This document shows, piece after piece, positions 9,988-17,441 of a stretch of 64,000 bases of DNA. The stretch comes from Acidobacteriota bacterium (GTDB taxonomy: Bacteria; Acidobacteriota; Terriglobia; UBA7540): contig SCRD01000017.1 of the NCBI GenBank assembly GCA_004298155.1, forward strand, positions 248,001 to 312,000, given 5' to 3'. Both the position numbers and the translations under genes were made by a program. Every line of letters starts with the position of its first letter. The stretch's first letter is position 1. The notes under the pieces are model-generated. The model was not told where the DNA came from. It did not search any database and saw nothing but the letters and a program-made list of their open reading frames with translations.

Positions 9988-10569
9988 GTGGATATTCCAG
10001 TGATGGCGCGCCTCAGCGAGGCCGGGTTGAGCGACGCAAATCGGGTGGATCGAGAGAGTTCGTGCTGGACCGAAGAAGCCTTTCAGGGCTTCTTCCTGGA
10101 AAACTATGCACGGCTGGTGGGTGTGATCTTCCGCATTGTCGGCGACTACCCTCGAGCTGAAGGCCTTACCGACGAAGCCTTTTGGAGACTGTACCGCCAG
10201 CCCTGCGGCGGCAACAAATTTAACCCCAGCGGCTGGATCTACCGGACCGCCAGCCGCCTTGCGATTGACAGCTTGCGGGCCGAGGCCCGGCGTGGACGAA
10301 TTGAACAGGAGGCAGGGCCTTTACTGAGTGCAGGCCCGAGGCCGGACCCGTTGGATGCTGTTCTGGAAGCAGAGCGTTGCGCGCAAGTACGCAACGCCCT
10401 GGCTTTCCTTCGACCTCTTCAGGCACAGCTTTTGATTCTGCGAGCGAGCGGTTTCTCATATCAGGAACTGGCCGAGACCTTGAAAGTGAAGGCCGGGTCA
10501 GTTGGCACCCGGCTGATTCGTGCGGAAGCGGCCTTTCGCAAATCCTATTTGAAACTTTATGGGAAATAA
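9988..10569 (+). CDS. ECF-type RNA polymerase sigma factor
   Basis: The 193-residue protein has sigma region 2 (residues 30-90, with ARLVGVIFRIVGD and GWIYRTASRLAIDSLR) and region 4 with a helix-turn-helix (FSYQELAETLKVKAGSVGTRL) near the C-terminus. The GTG at 9988 is chosen because GGGAGG (9976-9981) lies six bases upstream; an in-frame ATG at 10003 has no such site. It is followed after nine bases by a zinc anti-sigma gene and then an ABC exporter, which suggests one stress-responsive operon. Region 2 is somewhat divergent. Confidence 0.86.
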   Translation: MDIPVMARLSEAGLSDANRVDRESSCWTEEAFQGFFLENYARLVGVIFRIVGDYPRAEGLTDEAFWRLYRQPCGGNKFNPSGWIYRTASRLAIDSLRAEARRGRIEQEAGPLLSAGPRPDPLDAVLEAERCAQVRNALAFLRPLQAQLLILRASGFSYQELAETLKVKAGSVGTRLIRAEAAFRKSYLKLYGK

Positions 10570-10578
10570 GGAGGAGTT

Positions 10579-11760
10579 ATGAAATGCCTTACTGACCAGA
10601 CTCTTCGAGCCTTGATCGACCAGGAGGCGCCGGAACTGGAACGAGAAGGCGCAAACCGGCACCTCACGGAATGCGCGGATTGCCGCGCCCGGTTGGAACG
10701 TATGTCGCGGGAGGCCGCGGAAACAGGGAGCGCCCTGGCGTCGCTGGCGCCTGGAAAACTTACCGAGCCGACGCAGGCGTTGGAGAGGTTTCAAGCGCAT
10801 CTCGTCGCCGAAGGCGATGTGTCCGCCCGGCGCGGCTTCCTGAGGGGACTCTTCGCGGTGCATCCTCTTCCGGCTTGGGGCGCCTTGACCACGACGGCGC
10901 TGGCTATCGTGCTCGTCACGCTTGCCCCGGCGCGAAGCTGGACACAGCGCGTCCTGGCGATGCTGCGAGTGGAGAAAGTGACCGTTGTTCCCCTGGACCT
11001 GAAATTCGACCAGAGCAGTGACACTCAGCAACTGGTTCGGAAGGTCATTTCTGATGAAGTGACAGTCACGCTCTCCGCCGGCAAGCCGCAGTTTGTTGCC
11101 GATGCTCCACAGGCAACTCAAATGGCGGGTTTCCCGGTGCGCACTTTCACTGACATGAAGGAAGCTCCGAAGATCGGCGTGGTTGGCGAGCAATCCTACA
11201 TCATGAAGTTGGATCAGGGCCGCCTCCAGGCAATTATCAATAGCATTGGCAAGTCGGACTTGCAGGTCCCGAATAGCATAAACGGCCAGGTGATTGCCGT
11301 GCACGTCCCGAAATCCGTTTTTCTCCGCTACGGCAACTGCCCGGACAAGCACTCTGGAACGGAGCCCGGAGCTGCTGACCCTGGCGCGCCATCCGACACC
11401 TCCGGCTGCATTATGTTTGCCGAAGTCCCAAGTCCGGTTGTCAGCGTTCCGCCCGATCTGAATATTGGCCAGCTCTTCCAGATCGCTCTCCAGGCGGGAG
11501 GCATGAGTCCTGAAGAAGCCCAGGCCTTCAGTTCGAAAGTGGACTGGAAATCGACCCTTGTCGTCCCGATACCGAGACAGGCAAGCTCTTATTCTGAAGA
11601 GCAGGTAGACGGCGTGGCGGGAAACCTGATTTTGGGCAAGGGGTTTCGAGGGCAATCGCCGGAATTTACTCTGATCTGGGTGAAGAATGGGATTATCTAT
11701 TCCATACACGGTCCCGGCGGGCCCGATCGGGCCAGAGCGCTTGTAAAAACTTTGAGCTAA
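10579..11760 (+). CDS. Membrane anti-sigma factor with ZAS zinc domain
   Basis: The cytoplasmic N-terminus carries a complete ZAS motif (Cys3, His28, Cys32, Cys35; H-x3-C-x2-C), the usual sigma-binding zinc domain. A single membrane helix follows at residues 98-118. The remaining 270 residues would be periplasmic and contain two cysteines (NCPDK and SGCIMF) that could form a disulfide. The C-terminal part resembles DUF4367-type sensor domains only loosely. The gene lies nine bases after its cognate sigma factor, with GGAGG before the ATG. It presumably holds that sigma factor inactive until an envelope signal arrives. Confidence 0.82.
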   Translation: MKCLTDQTLRALIDQEAPELEREGANRHLTECADCRARLERMSREAAETGSALASLAPGKLTEPTQALERFQAHLVAEGDVSARRGFLRGLFAVHPLPAWGALTTTALAIVLVTLAPARSWTQRVLAMLRVEKVTVVPLDLKFDQSSDTQQLVRKVISDEVTVTLSAGKPQFVADAPQATQMAGFPVRTFTDMKEAPKIGVVGEQSYIMKLDQGRLQAIINSIGKSDLQVPNSINGQVIAVHVPKSVFLRYGNCPDKHSGTEPGAADPGAPSDTSGCIMFAEVPSPVVSVPPDLNIGQLFQIALQAGGMSPEEAQAFSSKVDWKSTLVVPIPRQASSYSEEQVDGVAGNLILGKGFRGQSPEFTLIWVKNGIIYSIHGPGGPDRARALVKTLS

Positions 11761-11826
11761 TATCCTGATATCCCACTTTCTTTTGGGATTTGCAATATGC
11801 GCATCGTAATGAGCGCCAGGCAGTGA

Positions 11827-12777
11827 ATGGGTTCCCAGGGAATGCAACGAGCTCCCGCATCGCCAGACCTCGCGATAGAAACCCGGATGCTGGGCAAAAT
11901 CTTTGGTTCCAAGGTCGCTGTGCGCGGCCTTACCCTTGAGGTGCCCCGCGGCGAAGTGTTCGGTTTCCTTGGCCCCAACGGGGCAGGCAAAAGTACCTCG
12001 ATAAAGATGATGCTTGGGCTGATCGCGCCTACCCGAGGTGAAGCCCTTGTTCTGGGTGTGCCGGCCGGCGATGTTTCAGTACGGCGAAAGATAGGGTTTT
12101 TGCCTGAGCACTTCCGCTTCTATGAATGGCTGACGGCCGCAGAGCTTCTCGGGGTGCACGGGCGTCTTTACGGGATGTCTAAATCGAGATTGCGGGAGCG
12201 CATCCCTGAGCTTCTGAATGATGTCGGCCTCTGGCCGCACCGTGAAAAGCGAGTGCGTGACTTCTCCAAGGGCATGATGCAGCGCCTGGGCCTGGCGCAG
12301 GCGCTCCTCAACGAACCTGATCTGATTTTTCTTGATGAGCCGACCTCAGGGCTTGACCCGGCGGGCCGAAAACTGGTGCGCGACATCATCAGGGCACAGC
12401 GCGACCGTGGAGCCACCGTTTTCCTGAATTCGCACCTGCTGGGCGAGGTTGAAGTCACGTGCGACCGCGTTAGTTTTATCAAGAACGGCGAGGTGCTCGA
12501 GACGCGGCGCCTCGGAGCACGGGTCGAGGATGAAGTCACGGTGACGATGCGGGCCCGGAACCTCAGCCCTGAAACCCTGTCCGCGCTCGAGCAGCTTGTC
12601 TCCTCCCTTAAAGTGGCTGATGACGGGTTGACGTTCTATACGCGCTCGATGGACGCCTTGCCGGGCATCGTGCGCTTTCTTGTGAGCCAGAACGTGGACG
12701 TTTATGAAATCACTCCGCAGCGCCTCTCGCTCGAAGATCTTTTCCTTCGAATTGTGGGCCCGGACGGAGGGCTGTGA
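11827..12777 (+). CDS. ABC transporter ATP-binding protein (ABC-2 exporter type)
   Basis: The 316-residue protein is a nucleotide-binding subunit with Walker A GPNGAGKS, signature FSKGMMQRL and Walker B LIFLDEPTSGLDP, followed by a switch His (NSHLLGEVE). The C-terminal 90 residues are the accessory domain common to exporters of the NatA/CcmA/YhaQ type. A start at 11827 or at the ATG 11842 is possible, since neither has a strong ribosome site. It overlaps the permease gene by one base (TGATG), so the two form one transporter. Substrate unknown. Confidence 0.93.
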   Translation: MGSQGMQRAPASPDLAIETRMLGKIFGSKVAVRGLTLEVPRGEVFGFLGPNGAGKSTSIKMMLGLIAPTRGEALVLGVPAGDVSVRRKIGFLPEHFRFYEWLTAAELLGVHGRLYGMSKSRLRERIPELLNDVGLWPHREKRVRDFSKGMMQRLGLAQALLNEPDLIFLDEPTSGLDPAGRKLVRDIIRAQRDRGATVFLNSHLLGEVEVTCDRVSFIKNGEVLETRRLGARVEDEVTVTMRARNLSPETLSALEQLVSSLKVADDGLTFYTRSMDALPGIVRFLVSQNVDVYEITPQRLSLEDLFLRIVGPDGGL

Positions 12778-13601
12778 TGGGAACGCAGGTGATGGCCGGC
12801 GTGACATTCCGTGAAGCGGCGCGCAAGAAAGTGCTCTGGATGGCATTCATTGCGGGAGCGGGCTTTCTGGCGCTTTTTGCGACAGGCATGCATTTTCAGG
12901 CGCGAGGCATCCATCTGAACAGTGAGGCCATCCGCCGCCAGATTCTCAATACGTCGCTCATGATGGGGCTCTATGCGGCGGACCTGCTGACGGTGTTGAT
13001 GACCATCCTCATCGCTGCCGACACACTTTCGGGCGAAATCGCTTCCGGCACCATTCACGCCATAGCCACCAAGCCTATAACGCGCCGCGAGATTCTCCTC
13101 GGCAAGTGGTTCGGATTCGTTGGCATGCTGACGGTCTACATTCTTTTCCTGTTGGGTGGAGTTGCTTTGCTCGGCTACCTTATCGGCGGGGCGACTGTCG
13201 AGCATCTCTGGCGTGGTCTTGGACTGGTGTGGCTGGAAAGCATCCTGTTGCTGAACATCACTCTCCTTTGTGGCACAGCTTTTTCCACCCTCGCCAGCGG
13301 AGTCATCGTGCTGGGCATGCACGGGGTTGCCTTCCTGGGGGGCTGGATCGAGCAGATTGGCGCTGTTACACACAGTCAGGGCGCCGTCAATGTTGGCATT
13401 GTTGCGAGTATCCTGATGCCGAGTGAAGCATTGTGGCGCCGCGCGGCTTTCGAGATGCAGACGCCCCTGATGAGTGTTCTGAACATGTCCCCGTTCAGCA
13501 GCTTTTCGGTGCCGAGCAGAATCATGGTTGCCTATGCCACCGTCTATCTGCTCGTGGCGCTGGGGCTGGCCCTGCGCCAGTTCCGGCTGAAAGATCTATA
13601 G
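12777..13601 (+). CDS. ABC-2 type transporter permease
   Basis: This is a 274-residue integral membrane protein with about six hydrophobic helices and the ABC-2 hallmark LSGEIASGTIHAIATKPITRREILLGK near residue 80-105. Such proteins pair with the upstream ATPase to export drugs, lipids or peptides. ATG 12777 is preferred over an overlapping GTG at 12774 because GGAGG lies about six bases before it. This is the last gene of the sigma/anti-sigma/ABC group; the following gene is on the other strand and convergent. Confidence 0.87.
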   Translation: MGTQVMAGVTFREAARKKVLWMAFIAGAGFLALFATGMHFQARGIHLNSEAIRRQILNTSLMMGLYAADLLTVLMTILIAADTLSGEIASGTIHAIATKPITRREILLGKWFGFVGMLTVYILFLLGGVALLGYLIGGATVEHLWRGLGLVWLESILLLNITLLCGTAFSTLASGVIVLGMHGVAFLGGWIEQIGAVTHSQGAVNVGIVASILMPSEALWRRAAFEMQTPLMSVLNMSPFSSFSVPSRIMVAYATVYLLVALGLALRQFRLKDL

Positions 13602-13787: not shown

Positions 13788-14660
13788 TTATCCTGCAGCA
13801 TGGCTTTCTCTGCCATTCATGGCTGTTTGCAGCGCAGGTGCGAGCCCCACGGCGAGTTGATCCATTTGGTGCTGGCCGAGGTCTGAAACCACGAATCCGA
13901 AGTAATCGTCCACTTGGAAGCCGGCAACACTCGTTCCCTCAAGCTGCTTTTCGAATATTTTGACATTGCCCGACGACGCCGAAGTTACAAATCTCCCCGA
14001 GGGCAGAGTTACGCCGTCACGTCTGGTAAGAATCACCGAAAGGACCGTGCCTTGCCCGCGAGCGATGAAATGGACATACTTGCGCGGGCTGCCTGGAACG
14101 CTGCAGATGTGAGCTTCGAGGACCTGGAAACCCGGCAGTTTTTGTTCGACGACCGGCACCAATCCGGCGTATTGCGGCCCGAGCTTCTGGCGAAGCACTT
14201 CGGGCGGGTTTGCTACATTCGGATAGTTGTGACCCCGGATGGCGCAATGAAGATGATCTGAAACGCCAAGCTGCAGGACGCTGGCCACCATTTGCCTGGC
14301 GTGTTCCAGCCTTATCCACTGCTGCCCGGCAATCCCCACAATCACGATCATTGCAGCGCCTGCGAGCGCCAGCGCCCATGCAGGTGCGCGAGCCGTCCAG
14401 GAAGCACGTGATTGGGCCTTCTTCAGACGCTGGTGAATGGCATCGCCGAGTTCCTCCGGTGTTGATTCCCGCGCGGCGGCGCGTTGCAAAGCTTCTCGAA
14501 TCCGCATGCGCGATTCCAATTCGCGTGAGCAAAACCCGCAATTTTCCAGGTGCCGCAACATTTCGGCTGTTGTTTCCACCAGCAATTCATTGCTGAGGTA
14601 GGCATCCATCTGCCGGCGAGTTCGGTCGCACTGTCTGGAACCCAAATTCAGCGCGCTCAT
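13788..14660 (-). CDS. Membrane anti-sigma factor with ZAS zinc domain (second pair)
   Basis: The N-terminus has Cys11, His37, Cys41 and Cys44 (HLENCGFC), a full ZAS zinc motif. A membrane helix follows at about residues 92-113 (ALALAGAAMIVIVGIAG). The 175-residue outer domain contains isolated His and Cys residues (HLHCAIRGHNY, HICSVPGS) that could sense redox or metal. The ATG overlaps the stop of the sigma gene upstream by four bases (ATGA), so the two are translationally coupled. By position it should hold the 14657-15217 sigma factor inactive. It differs from the DUF1109 protein NrsF that does this job in the Azospira hypochlorite system. Confidence 0.84.
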   Translation of the reverse strand: MSALNLGSRQCDRTRRQMDAYLSNELLVETTAEMLRHLENCGFCSRELESRMRIREALQRAAARESTPEELGDAIHQRLKKAQSRASWTARAPAWALALAGAAMIVIVGIAGQQWIRLEHARQMVASVLQLGVSDHLHCAIRGHNYPNVANPPEVLRQKLGPQYAGLVPVVEQKLPGFQVLEAHICSVPGSPRKYVHFIARGQGTVLSVILTRRDGVTLPSGRFVTSASSGNVKIFEKQLEGTSVAGFQVDDYFGFVVSDLGQHQMDQLAVGLAPALQTAMNGRESHAAG

Positions 14661-15217
14661 GCAAGTTCTCCCCTGGCGGAGTCATTCGCGATATTTCCGA
14701 TGCCATAAGATTTCGCGACCTCGGCCAGCTCTTCGCGCAGCAGTTTCCTTCCCCGGCTCAGTCGGGACATTACTGTTCCCAGGGGGAGCTTCAAAGTTTC
14801 GGCGATCTCCTTGTATGAAAATTCTTCGACGTCTGCCATGACTACAATCTCGCGAAAAGCCTGAGGGACCTTATCGAGGGCTGCGAGGATGTCCTCGTCC
14901 TTGATTTCCTGTGGTACGGGAGGCTCGGCCGCCATGCTGTCCTGGTCTCGGGGGGTATCTTCAAGTGAAAACTTCAGCACTCGCCTGCGGAGATGGTGGA
15001 GGCGATGGAAGAGAATCCTGAAGAGCCATGCCTTGCAGTTGGTGCCGGGCTGAAAACGGTGGAAGGATTTCAACGCTTCCAGATAAACTTCCTGCACAAG
15101 GTCCTCCGCCTCCGCCGGGTTATGAACCAGGAATTTTGCGGTCCTGTACAGGGCCGCGAGATGGGGCATGGCGGCGGCTTCAAAGTCTTCTAAACCGGCT
15201 GTAGATCTAAAGAACAA
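14657..15217 (-). CDS. ECF-type RNA polymerase sigma factor (second pair)
   Basis: The 186-residue sigma-70 family protein has region 2 (PAEAEDLVQEVYLEALKSF), the core-binding segment NCKAWLFRILFHRLHHLRRR, and region 4 with a helix-turn-helix (EFSYKEIAETLKLPLGTVMSRL). It appears to start with TTG at 15217, with GGTGAG five bases upstream; an internal ATG at 15169 would cut into region 2. It lies downstream of a methionine-rich secreted peptide and MsrP-like genes on the same strand and overlaps the anti-sigma gene. It is likely to drive that locus. Confidence 0.92.
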   Translation of the reverse strand: MFFRSTAGLEDFEAAAMPHLAALYRTAKFLVHNPAEAEDLVQEVYLEALKSFHRFQPGTNCKAWLFRILFHRLHHLRRRVLKFSLEDTPRDQDSMAAEPPVPQEIKDEDILAALDKVPQAFREIVVMADVEEFSYKEIAETLKLPLGTVMSRLSRGRKLLREELAEVAKSYGIGNIANDSARGELA

Positions 15218-15248
15218 TTCTACTCACCGCCGCGGCAGCTCTGAAAGA

Positions 15249-15275
15249 AAAGGTGGAACGCAGGGCCCCACCTTT
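15249..15275 (-). terminator. Hairpin between the Met-rich peptide and sigma genes
   Basis: An 8-bp stem (AAAGGTGG / CCACCTTT, arms 15249-15256 and 15268-15275) is followed on the minus strand by TTCTTTC. This is a weak intrinsic terminator or attenuator that could let the small peptide gene be expressed far above the sigma gene. Confidence 0.5.
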
Positions 15276-15296
15276 CCAGGCTTTGGAGTCTCTCGA

Positions 15297-15554
15297 TTAC
15301 TCCTTCGGTTGGTCCATCTTATCCTGGGTCTGCATCTTGTCGTGCTTCATTTTGTCTTTAGCCATTTTGCCTTTCTTGTGTTTCTTTTCCTTCTTCGCCA
15401 TCTTGTCGTGGCTGGCCATCTTTTCATCGCTCATCTTGTCGCCGGACTGCATTTTGTCATCCTGAGGTTGTGCCAGGGCCACACTCGTCAGCCTGTTAGC
15501 CACCACCATGCTCATACCAATGGCCATTGCCAGAATTACAATCCGTTTGATCAT
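15297..15554 (-). CDS. Secreted methionine/lysine-rich MXKDX-type repeat peptide (MrpX-like)
   Basis: The 85-residue protein has a signal peptide (residues 1-29, cleavage near ALA-QPQ) and a mature tail built from irregular repeats of D/E-K-M plus two to four residues. This gives eight Met and many Lys, Asp and His in under 60 residues, with a strongly basic core KKEKKHKKGK. The pattern matches the pentapeptide MXKDX repeat family. In Azospira a similar peptide (MrpX) is a sacrificial hypochlorite scavenger whose oxidised methionines are re-reduced by a YedY-type enzyme. The gene has a strong ribosome site (AAGGAGAGG). It sits directly after an MsrP-like gene and before an ECF sigma factor. 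Confidence 0.82.
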   Translation of the reverse strand: MIKRIVILAMAIGMSMVVANRLTSVALAQPQDDKMQSGDKMSDEKMASHDKMAKKEKKHKKGKMAKDKMKHDKMQTQDKMDQPKE

Positions 15555-15591
15555 GCTTGCCTCTCCTTTTTATTTTCTTGAATTTCAGAAC

Positions 15592-16533
15592 CTAGAGCCC
15601 CACATACCAGTCATATCCACGCTCCGCCCAGTAATCCGCGGGCCGCTTGTTGGAATACCGAATCGACCCAATGCGCTTGATATTCTTAACGCCGTACTTC
15701 AACGTCGCAACCAGCCGCAAGGGCGCGCCGTGCTCCTGCGAAAGCGGCGCTCCGTTTCGCTCGTAGCAGAGCAGCGTCTGCGGGTGCAGCATGCTTTCCA
15801 TGTCCAGCCCCACGTAGTAGCCTTCGTCCGGCGTCGCCATGCTGACGTAAGCGGGCAGGTCTTCCGTCCGGCTGAGGCTGAACGCGCCCCCGCTTCGAGT
15901 CAGCGGCGGATAGGTCTTCATGAAATCGGTAAAGCGCGCGCCGGCCCATTGCACGATCACGCTCCAGCCCTCGATGCATTTGAATTCTGTGGTCATCTCC
16001 ACGCGCGGAAGCTTCCGGATGGCGCCGAGGCCGAGCATCAACGGACCGCTTCCGGAAGCGAGGCCTTCGACGCGCAGTTTCCAGGCCGCAAAATCCACGT
16101 CTTCATCAAGACCGATATCTCCGTTCACGCGGTCCGGTCCCACCTGTTTCGGGTCAAAGGTCCGTGAAAGCCTGTGCTCACTAAAAAGTCCGCGGGCCAG
16201 CCGCTCGTTCAATTCCAGGGTCTTGCGAAGAGGCCAGGGAACACCACCTGTTGCAGGGCGGGTCGTCAGCCACTCGAAGGCTCCGGCTCCGGCAGCCAGT
16301 CCGGCCCCCCACAGCAGAAAGCTGCGTCGTGATTGATGCCGCATGCGGCGGCGTACCTGGCAATTCCACTCTTCCAACTCGGAGGGGTCCGGAGCAGTCG
16401 GCACCTCCGGCGCAGAGACCATTGGAGCCTGTTCCGTCTTGCCTGCTTCAGATTCGGCCGTGGCTGCAGCATCGGCGTGAATCATTTCGGGTTCAACCAC
16501 CTGGCCTTCAGGTTGTTCCTTACCGTTATTCAT
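15592..16533 (-). CDS. MsrP/YedY-like molybdopterin-dependent oxidoreductase
   Basis: This is a 313-residue sulfite-oxidase-fold protein. The block FKCIEGWSVIVQW corresponds to the molybdenum-ligating Cys region of YedY/MsrP (C-V-E-A-W-S), rather than to the C-A-G-N motif of sulfite oxidases. A twin-arginine signal (SRRSFLLWGAG, arginines 69-70) is preceded by an unusual acidic, Pro/Ala-rich 60-residue extension. A shorter start at Met64 would make a textbook Tat signal, but the ATG at 16533 has AAGGAA upstream and overlaps the cytochrome gene by eight bases. Probable role: periplasmic reduction of methionine sulfoxide, fed electrons by the adjacent cytochrome b. Molybdate uptake genes lie 4 kb away. 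Confidence 0.86.
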   Translation of the reverse strand: MNNGKEQPEGQVVEPEMIHADAAATAESEAGKTEQAPMVSAPEVPTAPDPSELEEWNCQVRRRMRHQSRRSFLLWGAGLAAGAGAFEWLTTRPATGGVPWPLRKTLELNERLARGLFSEHRLSRTFDPKQVGPDRVNGDIGLDEDVDFAAWKLRVEGLASGSGPLMLGLGAIRKLPRVEMTTEFKCIEGWSVIVQWAGARFTDFMKTYPPLTRSGGAFSLSRTEDLPAYVSMATPDEGYYVGLDMESMLHPQTLLCYERNGAPLSQEHGAPLRLVATLKYGVKNIKRIGSIRYSNKRPADYWAERGYDWYVGL

Positions 16534-17224
16534 AGGTGGCTTCCTTTGAAGAAACCAGCTCGTATCCGCTCACCATAGCGCGGAAATTGTTCCAGCCCGC
16601 CCGGACCACTTGGGCGATGTGGACGACGAAGAAAATCACGTAGCCGGCGGCCAGCAGAAAATGCTCGAAACGCGCCGCAGAGTAGCCTCCCAGCAAATCA
16701 GTCAGCCAGCCGATCTGCACGGGTTTGTAAATCGCCAGCCCGGTGACAACAGACCCGAAGCCCATCAGGATGACGCCGGTGTAGGCAATCTGCTGCGCTC
16801 CGTTAAATTTGCGTGCGGGAAGTTGGCCCTTCCAGAGACGGAGGTCGTGGAGCGCGACGAGGACGGCTTCACGGAAGGAGTGCCTGCTCGGGACCAGTTG
16901 GCGCCATTCTCCCGTAAATACCGTATAGGCTACGTACAGGGCCCCGTTGAGGACAAAAAACCACATGAAGAAGAAGTGCCAGGCCATGCCCTTCGCCAGT
17001 TGGTAACTGACGCCAAACGCGCGATAGAAACCGGCTGGAAAAAATTTGAAGAGCGTGAAGGAGCCGACACCGGCGCGATAAACGTCATTGGCCCAGTAAA
17101 TCCAGAGCCCGCTCCAGATCATCAGGGCCAGCAGGGGAAAATTGACCCAGTGGCACCATCGGATGGCCAGCGGATGTTTTGGTCTAATCTCCAGTCGCTC
17201 CACACTTTCCTTCATTGAGGGCAT
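16526..17224 (-). CDS. Membrane cytochrome b (b561 / hydrogenase b-type family)
   Basis: The protein has four membrane helices with conserved histidines in the first (RWCHWVNF), second (GMAWHFFFM) and fourth (FEHFLLAAGYVIFFVVHIA), the arrangement of di-haem b-type quinol-oxidising subunits. It immediately precedes and overlaps the MsrP-like gene, so it is the likely electron donor from the quinone pool, a role played by YedZ/MsrQ elsewhere. Start codons at 17224, 17215 (both ATG) and 17251 (GTG) are possible; 17224 is used here because GGGGTGAA precedes it. This is the first gene of the minus-strand group running to 13788. Confidence 0.83.
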   Translation of the reverse strand: MPSMKESVERLEIRPKHPLAIRWCHWVNFPLLALMIWSGLWIYWANDVYRAGVGSFTLFKFFPAGFYRAFGVSYQLAKGMAWHFFFMWFFVLNGALYVAYTVFTGEWRQLVPSRHSFREAVLVALHDLRLWKGQLPARKFNGAQQIAYTGVILMGFGSVVTGLAIYKPVQIGWLTDLLGGYSAARFEHFLLAAGYVIFFVVHIAQVVRAGWNNFRAMVSGYELVSSKEATYE

Positions 17225-17441
17225 TTCACCCCAATTGTTCCCCGCTCCCACACTTCTGTAATACCGGGCCCTGGCCAGAATATTCCCGGCAAGGATGAAT
17301 TTTCTGCTGTCGCTGTTTTTCCTGCCTCAGCGCCAGGACGCGGCGCTTCCAGAAGCGCCAGTGCCGGGCCTGGGCAACGTTCGTTGACTCACCTTGGTCG
17401 CTGTGCTAAACATGGTACCAAAGGGGAAAGGTGGTGCCGCC

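Follow-up and report, generated by a model that had tools for sequence, protein, structure and literature searches.

Introduction

Repair of oxidized methionine in the cell envelope by molybdoenzymes has, to our knowledge, been studied mainly through the MsrPQ system of Proteobacteria, which in Escherichia coli is under the control of HprSR. In Azospira suillum, two reports describe sigF and nrsF, yedYZ and mrpX as a presumed methionine cycle; homologues of msrA and msrB with predicted export come in addition from two perchlorate islands (PMC4623255, PMC5748585). A report on Brucella melitensis describes bcrXQP as induced by hypochlorous acid (HOCl) and as adding to HOCl resistance, with a sigma factor of the extracytoplasmic function (ECF) group ECF16 and a DUF1109 anti-sigma factor (PMC8315932). 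Bradyrhizobium EcfF has under its control three genes for predicted methionine sulfoxide reductases (PMC3420878), and Caulobacter SigF, with a YedY gene in its regulon, responds to heavy-metal stress (dichromate; PMC3511200). The present analysis concerns a five-gene locus in a 64,000-nucleotide stretch of Acidobacteriota DNA (Terriglobia; contig SCRD01000017.1, positions 248,001 to 312,000; hereafter the window) that encodes a cytochrome, an MsrP-like molybdoenzyme, a methionine-rich peptide, an ECF sigma factor and an anti-sigma factor. Judged from its genes and their relatives, this module is probably a sigma-controlled methionine-sulfoxide defence of the cell envelope.

The module resembles the SigF/NrsF-MrpX-YedYZ hypochlorite system in its parts and in its predicted regulon; the switch and the promoter differ. 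The likeness to the Azospira system extends to the ECF sigma and anti-sigma pair, the Met-rich peptide, the YedYZ-type enzyme pair and the presumed cycle. Unlike the Azospira system, the window locus has an RsrA-like zinc anti-sigma factor with a periplasmic domain in place of NrsF, and msrBA lies within its predicted regulon. With BcrS/AbcS-BcrXQP of B. melitensis it shares an MXKDX peptide, an Msr-type pair and an ECF sigma factor with its anti-sigma factor; the Brucella promoter is given as TGTAAC (-35) and GCGAAA (-10), under ECF16/DUF1109 regulation, whereas that of the window is GGGAATA-N16-GGTATT (PMC8315932). Literature searches found no paper joining cytochrome b561, MsrP and methionine sulfoxide, nor one joining extracytoplasmic function, molybdopterin and cytochrome b561, within a coverage that left out most subscription journals.

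Results

Organization and conservation of the locus

The genome that contains the window (G000) measures 5.2 Mb in 29 contigs, the window lying on contig C17. An earlier note, made from the letters of the window, had placed the five genes on one strand; all five open reading frames (ORFs) are indeed present on the minus strand, at 13788-17251, and a family was assigned to each. The cytochrome b561-type membrane subunit (16526..17224; the ORF is open from 17251, with an ATG at 17224) matches PF01292 at 59.8 bits (3.8e-16), and its gene overlaps by 8 nt that of the MsrP-like molybdoenzyme (15592..16533), which carries a twin-arginine signal, the block TEFKCIEGWS and a PF00174 match of 4.1e-23. 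There follows a Met/Lys/Asp-rich MXKDX-type peptide of 85 amino acids (15297..15554), predicted to be exported from a signal peptide recognized by eye, which scores 28 bits with TIGR02953 (cut-off 41). The ECF sigma factor (14657..15217) contains sigma-70 regions 2 and 4 (PF04542, PF08281) and is nearest to a SigH/SigR-like model, TIGR02947 being the closest in NCBIfam (153 bits, cut-off 251.55). Its gene overlaps by 4 nt that of the anti-sigma factor (13788..14660), for which the prediction is an RsrA-like zinc domain, then a single membrane helix and, on the periplasmic side, a domain folded like the C-terminal domain of RseB/MucB. A Met-rich MXKDX-type peptide, a YedY-type enzyme and a cytochrome are linked at this locus.

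The arrangement is conserved. In a genome of the same genus (G396, locus L073) all five genes are present in the same order and with the same neighbours, with identities of 79-89% (cytochrome 85%, enzyme 79%, peptide 89%, sigma factor 86%, anti-sigma factor 82%). A contig of the same family (L074) holds cytochrome, enzyme, peptide and sigma factor before it ends, and its peptide is 46% identical to that of the window. The conserved block in L073 and L074 rules out a chance neighbourhood of the five genes.

A hairpin and a following U-rich run lie in the gap between the peptide and sigma genes (15248..15275, minus strand) and could act as a partial terminator. The hairpin is conserved in L073, where G-U pairs are replaced by G-C pairs; it is no stabler than shuffled sequence (z -0.73) and is absent from the list of the terminator scan, which itself found about as many candidates as shuffles did (5, against a mean of 4.8). 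A scan for sigma-70-type promoters found three, against a shuffle mean of 1.2, which is little excess.

Promoter motif and predicted regulon

The earlier note had suggested a search for an ECF promoter before 17224, and one is predicted at 17260..17287 (minus strand), where GGGAATA-N16-GGTATT precedes the whole operon and is kept in L073 and L074. The form GGGAATA-N16-G[TC]ATT is common to the operon upstream regions of the window, L073 and L074 and to the region upstream of the sigma gene of locus L035; in general form the motif before the operon reads GGGAATA-N16-GNATT. The -35 element of SigR promoters is GGGAAT.

The motif was tested in genomes of the window's phylum. Among 83 related loci (2.2 million strand-bases, pattern GGAATA-N16-GN[AT]T), 22 of 51 matches lay upstream of module genes, against 3.5% expected from the share of bases; when the eight loci in which the motif had been seen were removed, the figure was 12 of 39, against 3.3%. 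Enrichment was found with spacers of 16 (22/51) and 17 (7/19), spacers of 12-15, 18 and 19 giving one such upstream match each and a spacer of 20 giving three of 13. The reversed pattern, used as a control, had none of its 10 matches in the windows upstream of module genes. Since the loci are kin to one another, the p-values of this test serve as a rough guide at most.

Genome-wide, the strict motif occurs at five sites in G000 and three in G396, and the reversed control at none in either. Two sites are common to both genomes, as judged by eye from sequence and neighbours: that of the module operon and one that precedes an msrB-msrA operon in both (G000:C13:105293-105320). The products of this second operon score above their cut-offs in the two genomes (MsrB 197 and 195 bits, cut-off 113; MsrA 175 and 174, cut-off 108), and by eye MsrB has a twin-arginine-like start and MsrA a lipoprotein-like one. 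In 12 other genomes, 37 motif sites were found against 9 reversed controls; G114, the genome of locus L148, had none. The sigma gene of the window has no such motif before it. In other loci the motif precedes the sigma gene itself, so that where this gene comes first the sigma factor appears to drive its own expression.

Linkage within Acidobacteriota and exchange of the enzyme pair

Enzyme matches at 1e-15 were found in 149 of 396 genomes of the phylum, many at about 30% identity; three of these distant matches (L058, L069, L070) fall in the MsrP group of the tree described below. The 53 loci considered (L033-L085) comprise 40 chosen mainly from the best matches and 13 from relatives. A separate cytochrome gene is present in 34 of the 40 and in all 13 of the others, and in L048 cytochrome and enzyme form a single reading frame. 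The five of the 40 without a cytochrome are the three loci of the MsrP group, L068, whose enzyme is SorA-like, and L066.

MXKDX-like sequence occurs in 7 of the 53 loci (L039, L054, L073, L074, L078, L082, L084), and methionine sulfoxide reductase or thiol partners accompany some of the enzyme pairs. In L035 the gene divergent from the sigma operon encodes an MsrB whose start looks lipoprotein-like by eye, L038 has a TlpA-MsrB fusion divergent from the cytochrome-enzyme pair, and in L077 and L078 a TlpA-type thioredoxin gene comes first (domain tested in L078). Just before the sigma and anti-sigma genes of L039 (4315-4827) and L167 (4691-5209), loci of two families, lie exported fusions of an N-terminal MXKDD-repeat region to thioredoxin, 41% identical to one another (thioredoxin domain tested in L039); here a Met-rich peptide is joined to its possible thiol partner. 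A different ECF/zinc anti-sigma pair stands beside the enzyme in two of the 53 loci, L054 and L084. The anti-sigma factor there (L054:9239-9946, L084:4119-4718) is of another zinc type, follows the b561 pair and has an MXKDX-like gene nearby; its C-terminal Cys motif is similar to that of the Ada metal-binding domain, with a PF02805 match in L054 (0.00014) that stays below cut-off.

In L148, from a family other than that of the window, one row contains the genes for the sigma factor and the anti-sigma factor and then those for MsrP and MsrQ of canonical type (441 bits against a cut-off of 207, and 176 against 130). L148 shares its genus (g47) with L035, L039 and L038, and in L035 and L039 the b561 pair holds the place of MsrPQ.

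The anti-sigma profile (A2, at 1e-8) matched 111 of 396 genomes of the phylum and 46 of 121 related genomes, mostly through the N-terminal zinc part alone. Neighbours of these homologues include CRP-type regulators, lactonase-like propellers, thioredoxins and unrelated genes. In L149 (6418-8063; Pfam run on this locus), L152, L173 and L174 the anti-sigma family adjoins CRP-type regulators, these loci belonging to other bacterial families, which points to a second, unrelated regulon. A lactonase-like propeller gene follows the anti-sigma gene in L160 (4974-6032; by sequence) and L147 (5467-6645; by Pfam), and the gene in L160 comes with a separate copy of the motif.

Linkage in other phyla and on plasmids

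Named genomes were scanned with the enzyme profile, and the best 80 of 553 relatives, among the matches listed, were opened; Sphingobacteriaceae recur among them, and these loci are hence not independent. A cytochrome is present in all 80, fused to the enzyme in L260 and L267. MsrA or MsrB was found in 13, a Met-rich exported peptide in 19, and a sigma factor together with such a peptide within the fetched stretch in 14. Among 33 control loci, mostly loci of the window's anti-sigma family and including three with MsrP-type enzymes, none had a cytochrome or MsrA/B, and one had a Met-rich exported peptide, with a sigma factor. This one hit (L168) is MXKDX-like and had been fetched for the same anti-sigma family, so that the control set is not neutral. 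The protein in question (L168:2796-3356) is exported and carries GMKKDGMKKDGM repeats, at an anti-sigma-family locus without a molybdoenzyme. With a stricter filter, Met-rich peptides were found in 18 of the 80 named loci, in 1 of 41 from the phylum and in 1 of 55 controls; it passed over the peptide of the window itself and was loosened for the counts above. At genome scale, TIGR02953 found matches in 9 of 396 genomes, none over the cut-off; as it missed the window's own genome, this count tells little about linkage.

Across Acidobacteriota, Bacteroidota, Planctomycetota and Armatimonadota, a minority of the loci carry MsrA/MsrB or Met-rich exported peptides next to the enzyme pair. In Mucilaginibacter terrigena (L281) and Pedobacter sp. 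AK013 (L264), a DUF1223 gene, the cytochrome and the enzyme are divergent from a row (L281:1861-4287, L264:2455-4278) that encodes an ECF sigma factor, a short anti-sigma factor, a Met-rich peptide and a peroxiredoxin. By eye the short anti-sigma factor has an H-x3-C-x2-C pattern; it has no Pfam match (Pfam run on L281). In L222, from Hymenobacter rigui, cytochrome, enzyme and Met-rich peptide come after a histidine kinase and what by eye is a response regulator, and in a member of the Gemmataceae (L245) a Met-rich lipoprotein-like gene precedes the enzyme pair.

Five b561-type plasmid loci were opened from a single search. On Kozakia and Caballeronia plasmids a DUF1109 anti-sigma gene and a sigma gene are divergent from cytochrome-enzyme-MXKDX; the Kozakia anti-sigma factor is NrsF (PF06532, 137.6 bits), and the full row there is NrsF-sigma-msrA-msrB. 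On a Rahnella plasmid a two-component pair accompanies cytochrome-enzyme-MXKDX. The MXKDX peptides of these three plasmids are above the TIGR02953 cut-off, and their cytochromes belong to PF01292. The loci of Rhizobium CB3060 and of a Methylobacterium plasmid have no MXKDX peptide; in the former, a hypothetical gene and the enzyme pair run divergently from a two-component pair annotated as of heavy-metal type. The earlier note had taken the cytochrome of the window to be of a different kind from that of the Azospira system, which is doubtful, both NrsF-type plasmid loci opened (Kozakia and Caballeronia) sharing the PF01292 type. Linkage of the module genes elsewhere, which it had put forward as a check, was found in the same genus and family, in named genomes and on plasmids.

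The molybdoenzyme and its cytochrome partner

Like E. coli MsrP, the window enzyme belongs to PF00174, has the pattern C-x-E-[AG]-W-S around the metal ligand (TEFKCIEGWS, against YRMRCVEAWS) and has a membrane haem partner. Cys186 is invariant in two alignments (A1, 20 rows; A3, 15 rows) and Glu188 is present in at least 90% of rows; the first Arg of the twin-arginine motif is invariant in A1, and both are in A3. The two enzymes fall in separate groups of a tree, however, the partner in the window belongs to PF01292 rather than to PF01794 (MsrQ), and the window enzyme is shorter at its C-terminus, where E. coli MsrP has an extension.

In the tree (48 rows, with an uncertain root and uncertain long branches), the 6 MsrP and MsrP-like rows group by themselves (100/100), and the window enzyme lies outside this group. 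It falls among 29 b561-partnered rows with enzymes of Armatimonadota, Planctomycetota and Bacteroidota, at a support (81/89) under the mark for firm support in this tree. The enzymes of the proteobacterial plasmids fall with L054 and L084 in a second b561-partnered group (10 rows, 99/95). The window enzyme also lies outside a three-row sulfite group (98/95) made up of two annotated sulfite oxidases and the other PF00174 enzyme of the source genome, whose best model is SorA (129 bits). The C-[IV]-E-G-W pattern is missing from both annotated sulfite oxidases. With models of sulfite dehydrogenases (SorA, SorT, SoxC) the window enzyme scores 20-30 bits, against cut-offs of 420-600, and on these scores and the tree position a sulfite dehydrogenase identity is rejected. 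By sequence, then, the enzyme is a relative of MsrP and not a member of the MsrP group; the clustering with sulfite dehydrogenases that the earlier note had named as a refutation did not appear. It is predicted to be a periplasmic methionine-sulfoxide reductase. In the cytochrome, His 25, 83, 188 and 202 (numbered from the start at 17224) are conserved in 17 of 17 aligned proteins, and the protein is predicted to carry electrons from quinol to the enzyme.

The anti-sigma factor

The earlier note had assigned the anti-sigma factor to a family other than that of the Azospira system, and this proved correct: it is of zinc type, and no match to NrsF (PF06532) was found in it at E 0.01. The N-terminus matches zf-HC2 (0.00076; 20 bits, cut-off 22.2) and, below the cut-off of 62.5, the curated RsrA model (39.6 bits); NF052375 is also matched below cut-off, and PrgH at 15.6 bits. 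Searched against solved chains, the N-terminal profile found RsiW (1.8e-5) and RsrA (5.2e-5; 5frf). C11, H37, C41 and C44, a C-H-x3-C-x2-C zinc pattern, are present in at least 90% of 24 homologues; in RsrA, of the SigR/RsrA pair of Streptomyces, these positions are the zinc ligands and redox residues. RsrA is a soluble protein, unlike the window anti-sigma factor with its membrane helix and periplasmic domain.

A structural model built from 24 rows (mean pLDDT 87.6), which replaced a 7-row model (59.9), has a long helix at 94-142 that includes the membrane span (placed by eye), followed by an alpha/beta domain. Residues ~159-283 align with the C-terminal domain of RseB/MucB in six entries (VIA Z 9.0-9.8; root-mean-square deviation 2.4-3.1 over 96-107 residues); a seventh such entry (6in8, MucB alone) scores Z 6.5, the next unrelated row among those listed scoring 7.0. 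Foldseek gave E 2e-4 for the same match, with a TM-score of 0.23 over the whole model. RseB binds its anti-sigma factor as a distinct protein, whereas in the window the predicted fold sits inside the anti-sigma factor itself. Within the periplasmic part, H136, C139, C186 and H197 are invariant in the 24 homologues, and H184 is present in at least 90%; these residues could hold a metal or make a disulfide. The suggestion in the earlier note that the sensor may lie in the outer domain is in keeping with these residues; sensing by the cytoplasmic RsrA-like zinc switch would be equally possible.

Some 190 bp separate the end of the module from a second set of regulators: an ECF sigma gene (9988-10569, plus strand) and a zinc-type anti-sigma gene (10579-11760, plus strand) adjoin an ABC transporter pair (11827-13601, plus strand). 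These four genes (9988-13601) flank the module in L073 too.

Discussion

The repair reading is preferred because the promoter motif is common to the operon and msrB-msrA, because MsrPQ takes the place of the b561 pair in a related locus, because Msr genes and Met-rich peptides recur beside the pair, and because on plasmids a b561-enzyme-MXKDX cassette stands by an NrsF-type anti-sigma factor. The logic of a sigma-controlled module of an MsrP-like enzyme and a Met-rich peptide, as proposed in the earlier note, is supported. In the proposed mechanism, an oxidant would inactivate the membrane anti-sigma factor, either via the zinc site (C11, H37, C41, C44) or via the periplasmic His/Cys domain, and the freed sigma factor would transcribe its own operon from GGGAATA-N16-GGTATT together with the distant msrB-msrA operon. 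The exported MXKDX peptide, a predicted sacrificial sink, would absorb oxidant on its methionines. Reduction of the methionine sulfoxide would fall to the MsrP-like enzyme, to which the b561 cytochrome would pass electrons from the quinone pool, and to the exported MsrB and MsrA. By analogy with the described systems, hypochlorite may be the main natural inducer, although we hold this to be somewhat doubtful.

Several observations weigh against methionine repair or against the dedication of this regulator to it. The enzyme scores 82.3 bits with the MsrP model NF003767 (cut-off 207), against 504 for E. coli MsrP. In 52 of the best 80 named loci, the criteria applied here found no MsrA/B and no Met-rich peptide, and of 33 phylum loci chosen from L033-L085 as enzyme-cytochrome loci, four had a Met-rich peptide and three MsrA/B. 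In the same family, L075 consists of the cytochrome-enzyme pair by itself, and no enzyme match at 1e-25 was found in G397, of the same genus. A sigma and/or anti-sigma factor of the same type adjoins the enzyme pair in 7 of 53 phylum loci (L035, L039, L073, L074, L077, L078, L080). Among anti-sigma loci away from the enzyme (20 + 9), MsrPQ occurs in one of 29 and the b561 pair in none; the homologues are mostly beside other genes, so that the regulator is not dedicated to the module and its family is broader. Three of the five strict motif sites in G000 and one in G396 are not common to both. Of 30 sites opened in other genomes, 13 are inside long ORFs and six precede genes of the query families, namely MsrB (L209), an MXKDX-thioredoxin fusion (L186), a TlpA-like protein (L190), a sigma factor (L201), a lactonase-like protein (L192) and a cytochrome (L208).

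Three other explanations were considered. The molybdoenzyme might be a b561-linked enzyme of another function (acting on sulfite, other S-oxides or N-oxides) with which an unrelated stress peptide happens to share an operon. Its place outside the MsrP group, its score under the MsrP cut-off, its shorter C-terminus and the frequency of lone cytochrome-enzyme pairs without Msr genes would all fit this. Such an enzyme would not be expected, however, to be replaced by MsrPQ under the same type of regulator, to share a promoter motif with msrBA in both genomes of the genus or to recur beside Msr genes and Met-rich peptides, and its C-[IV]-E-G-W is that of MsrP and not of the annotated sulfite oxidases; we regard another function as very unlikely. 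A general thiol or metal (e.g. copper) stress regulon, in which the His/Cys domain would bind metal and the Met-rich peptide would chelate it, is unlikely to a lesser degree. It draws on the invariant H136, C139, C186 and H197, on the heavy-metal-type two-component pair near the enzyme pair of Rhizobium CB3060, and on Caulobacter SigF, which has YedY in its regulon and answers heavy-metal stress (dichromate; PMC3511200). Against it, the regulon that was found is one of Msr repair and not of metal export, and the peptide, in which Met, Lys and Asp abound, contains three His and lacks Cys.

The genes might also be neighbours without forming one operon, the hairpin at 15248-15275 ending the effector transcript and the sigma and anti-sigma genes being transcribed separately to control other genes. 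Conservation of the hairpin in L073 is in keeping with this arrangement, yet the hairpin is no stabler than shuffles, the five genes lie on one strand with two overlaps, and the window has no motif before its sigma gene of the kind that precedes this gene in other loci. Separate transcription is accordingly judged improbable, and a single operon for envelope methionine repair is retained as the preferred reading.

A broader proposal is made tentatively, at a little under even chance. Next to MsrPQ, the b561-partnered MsrP-like enzymes may constitute another widespread family of methionine-sulfoxide reductases in the periplasm, in an effector cassette of cytochrome b561, enzyme, Met-rich peptide and often MsrA/B that would have been coupled to at least four unrelated switches: NrsF, the RsrA-like domain fused to an RseB-like sensor, the short zinc-type anti-sigma factor of Bacteroidota, and histidine kinases. 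The window anti-sigma factor may then be a new one-protein oxidant sensor that combines an RsrA-type switch with an RseB-like periplasmic domain.

If this is true, envelope repair of the MsrPQ type would be carried out in Acidobacteriota, Bacteroidota and others by a second enzyme family, and a single effector cassette would have come under the control of several unrelated sensors. The promoter motif provides a directly testable regulon, and the anti-sigma factor is a compact candidate for an oxidant sensor. The hosts of the cassette include named strains of Mucilaginibacter, Pedobacter, Hymenobacter and Kozakia, which makes such tests practical.

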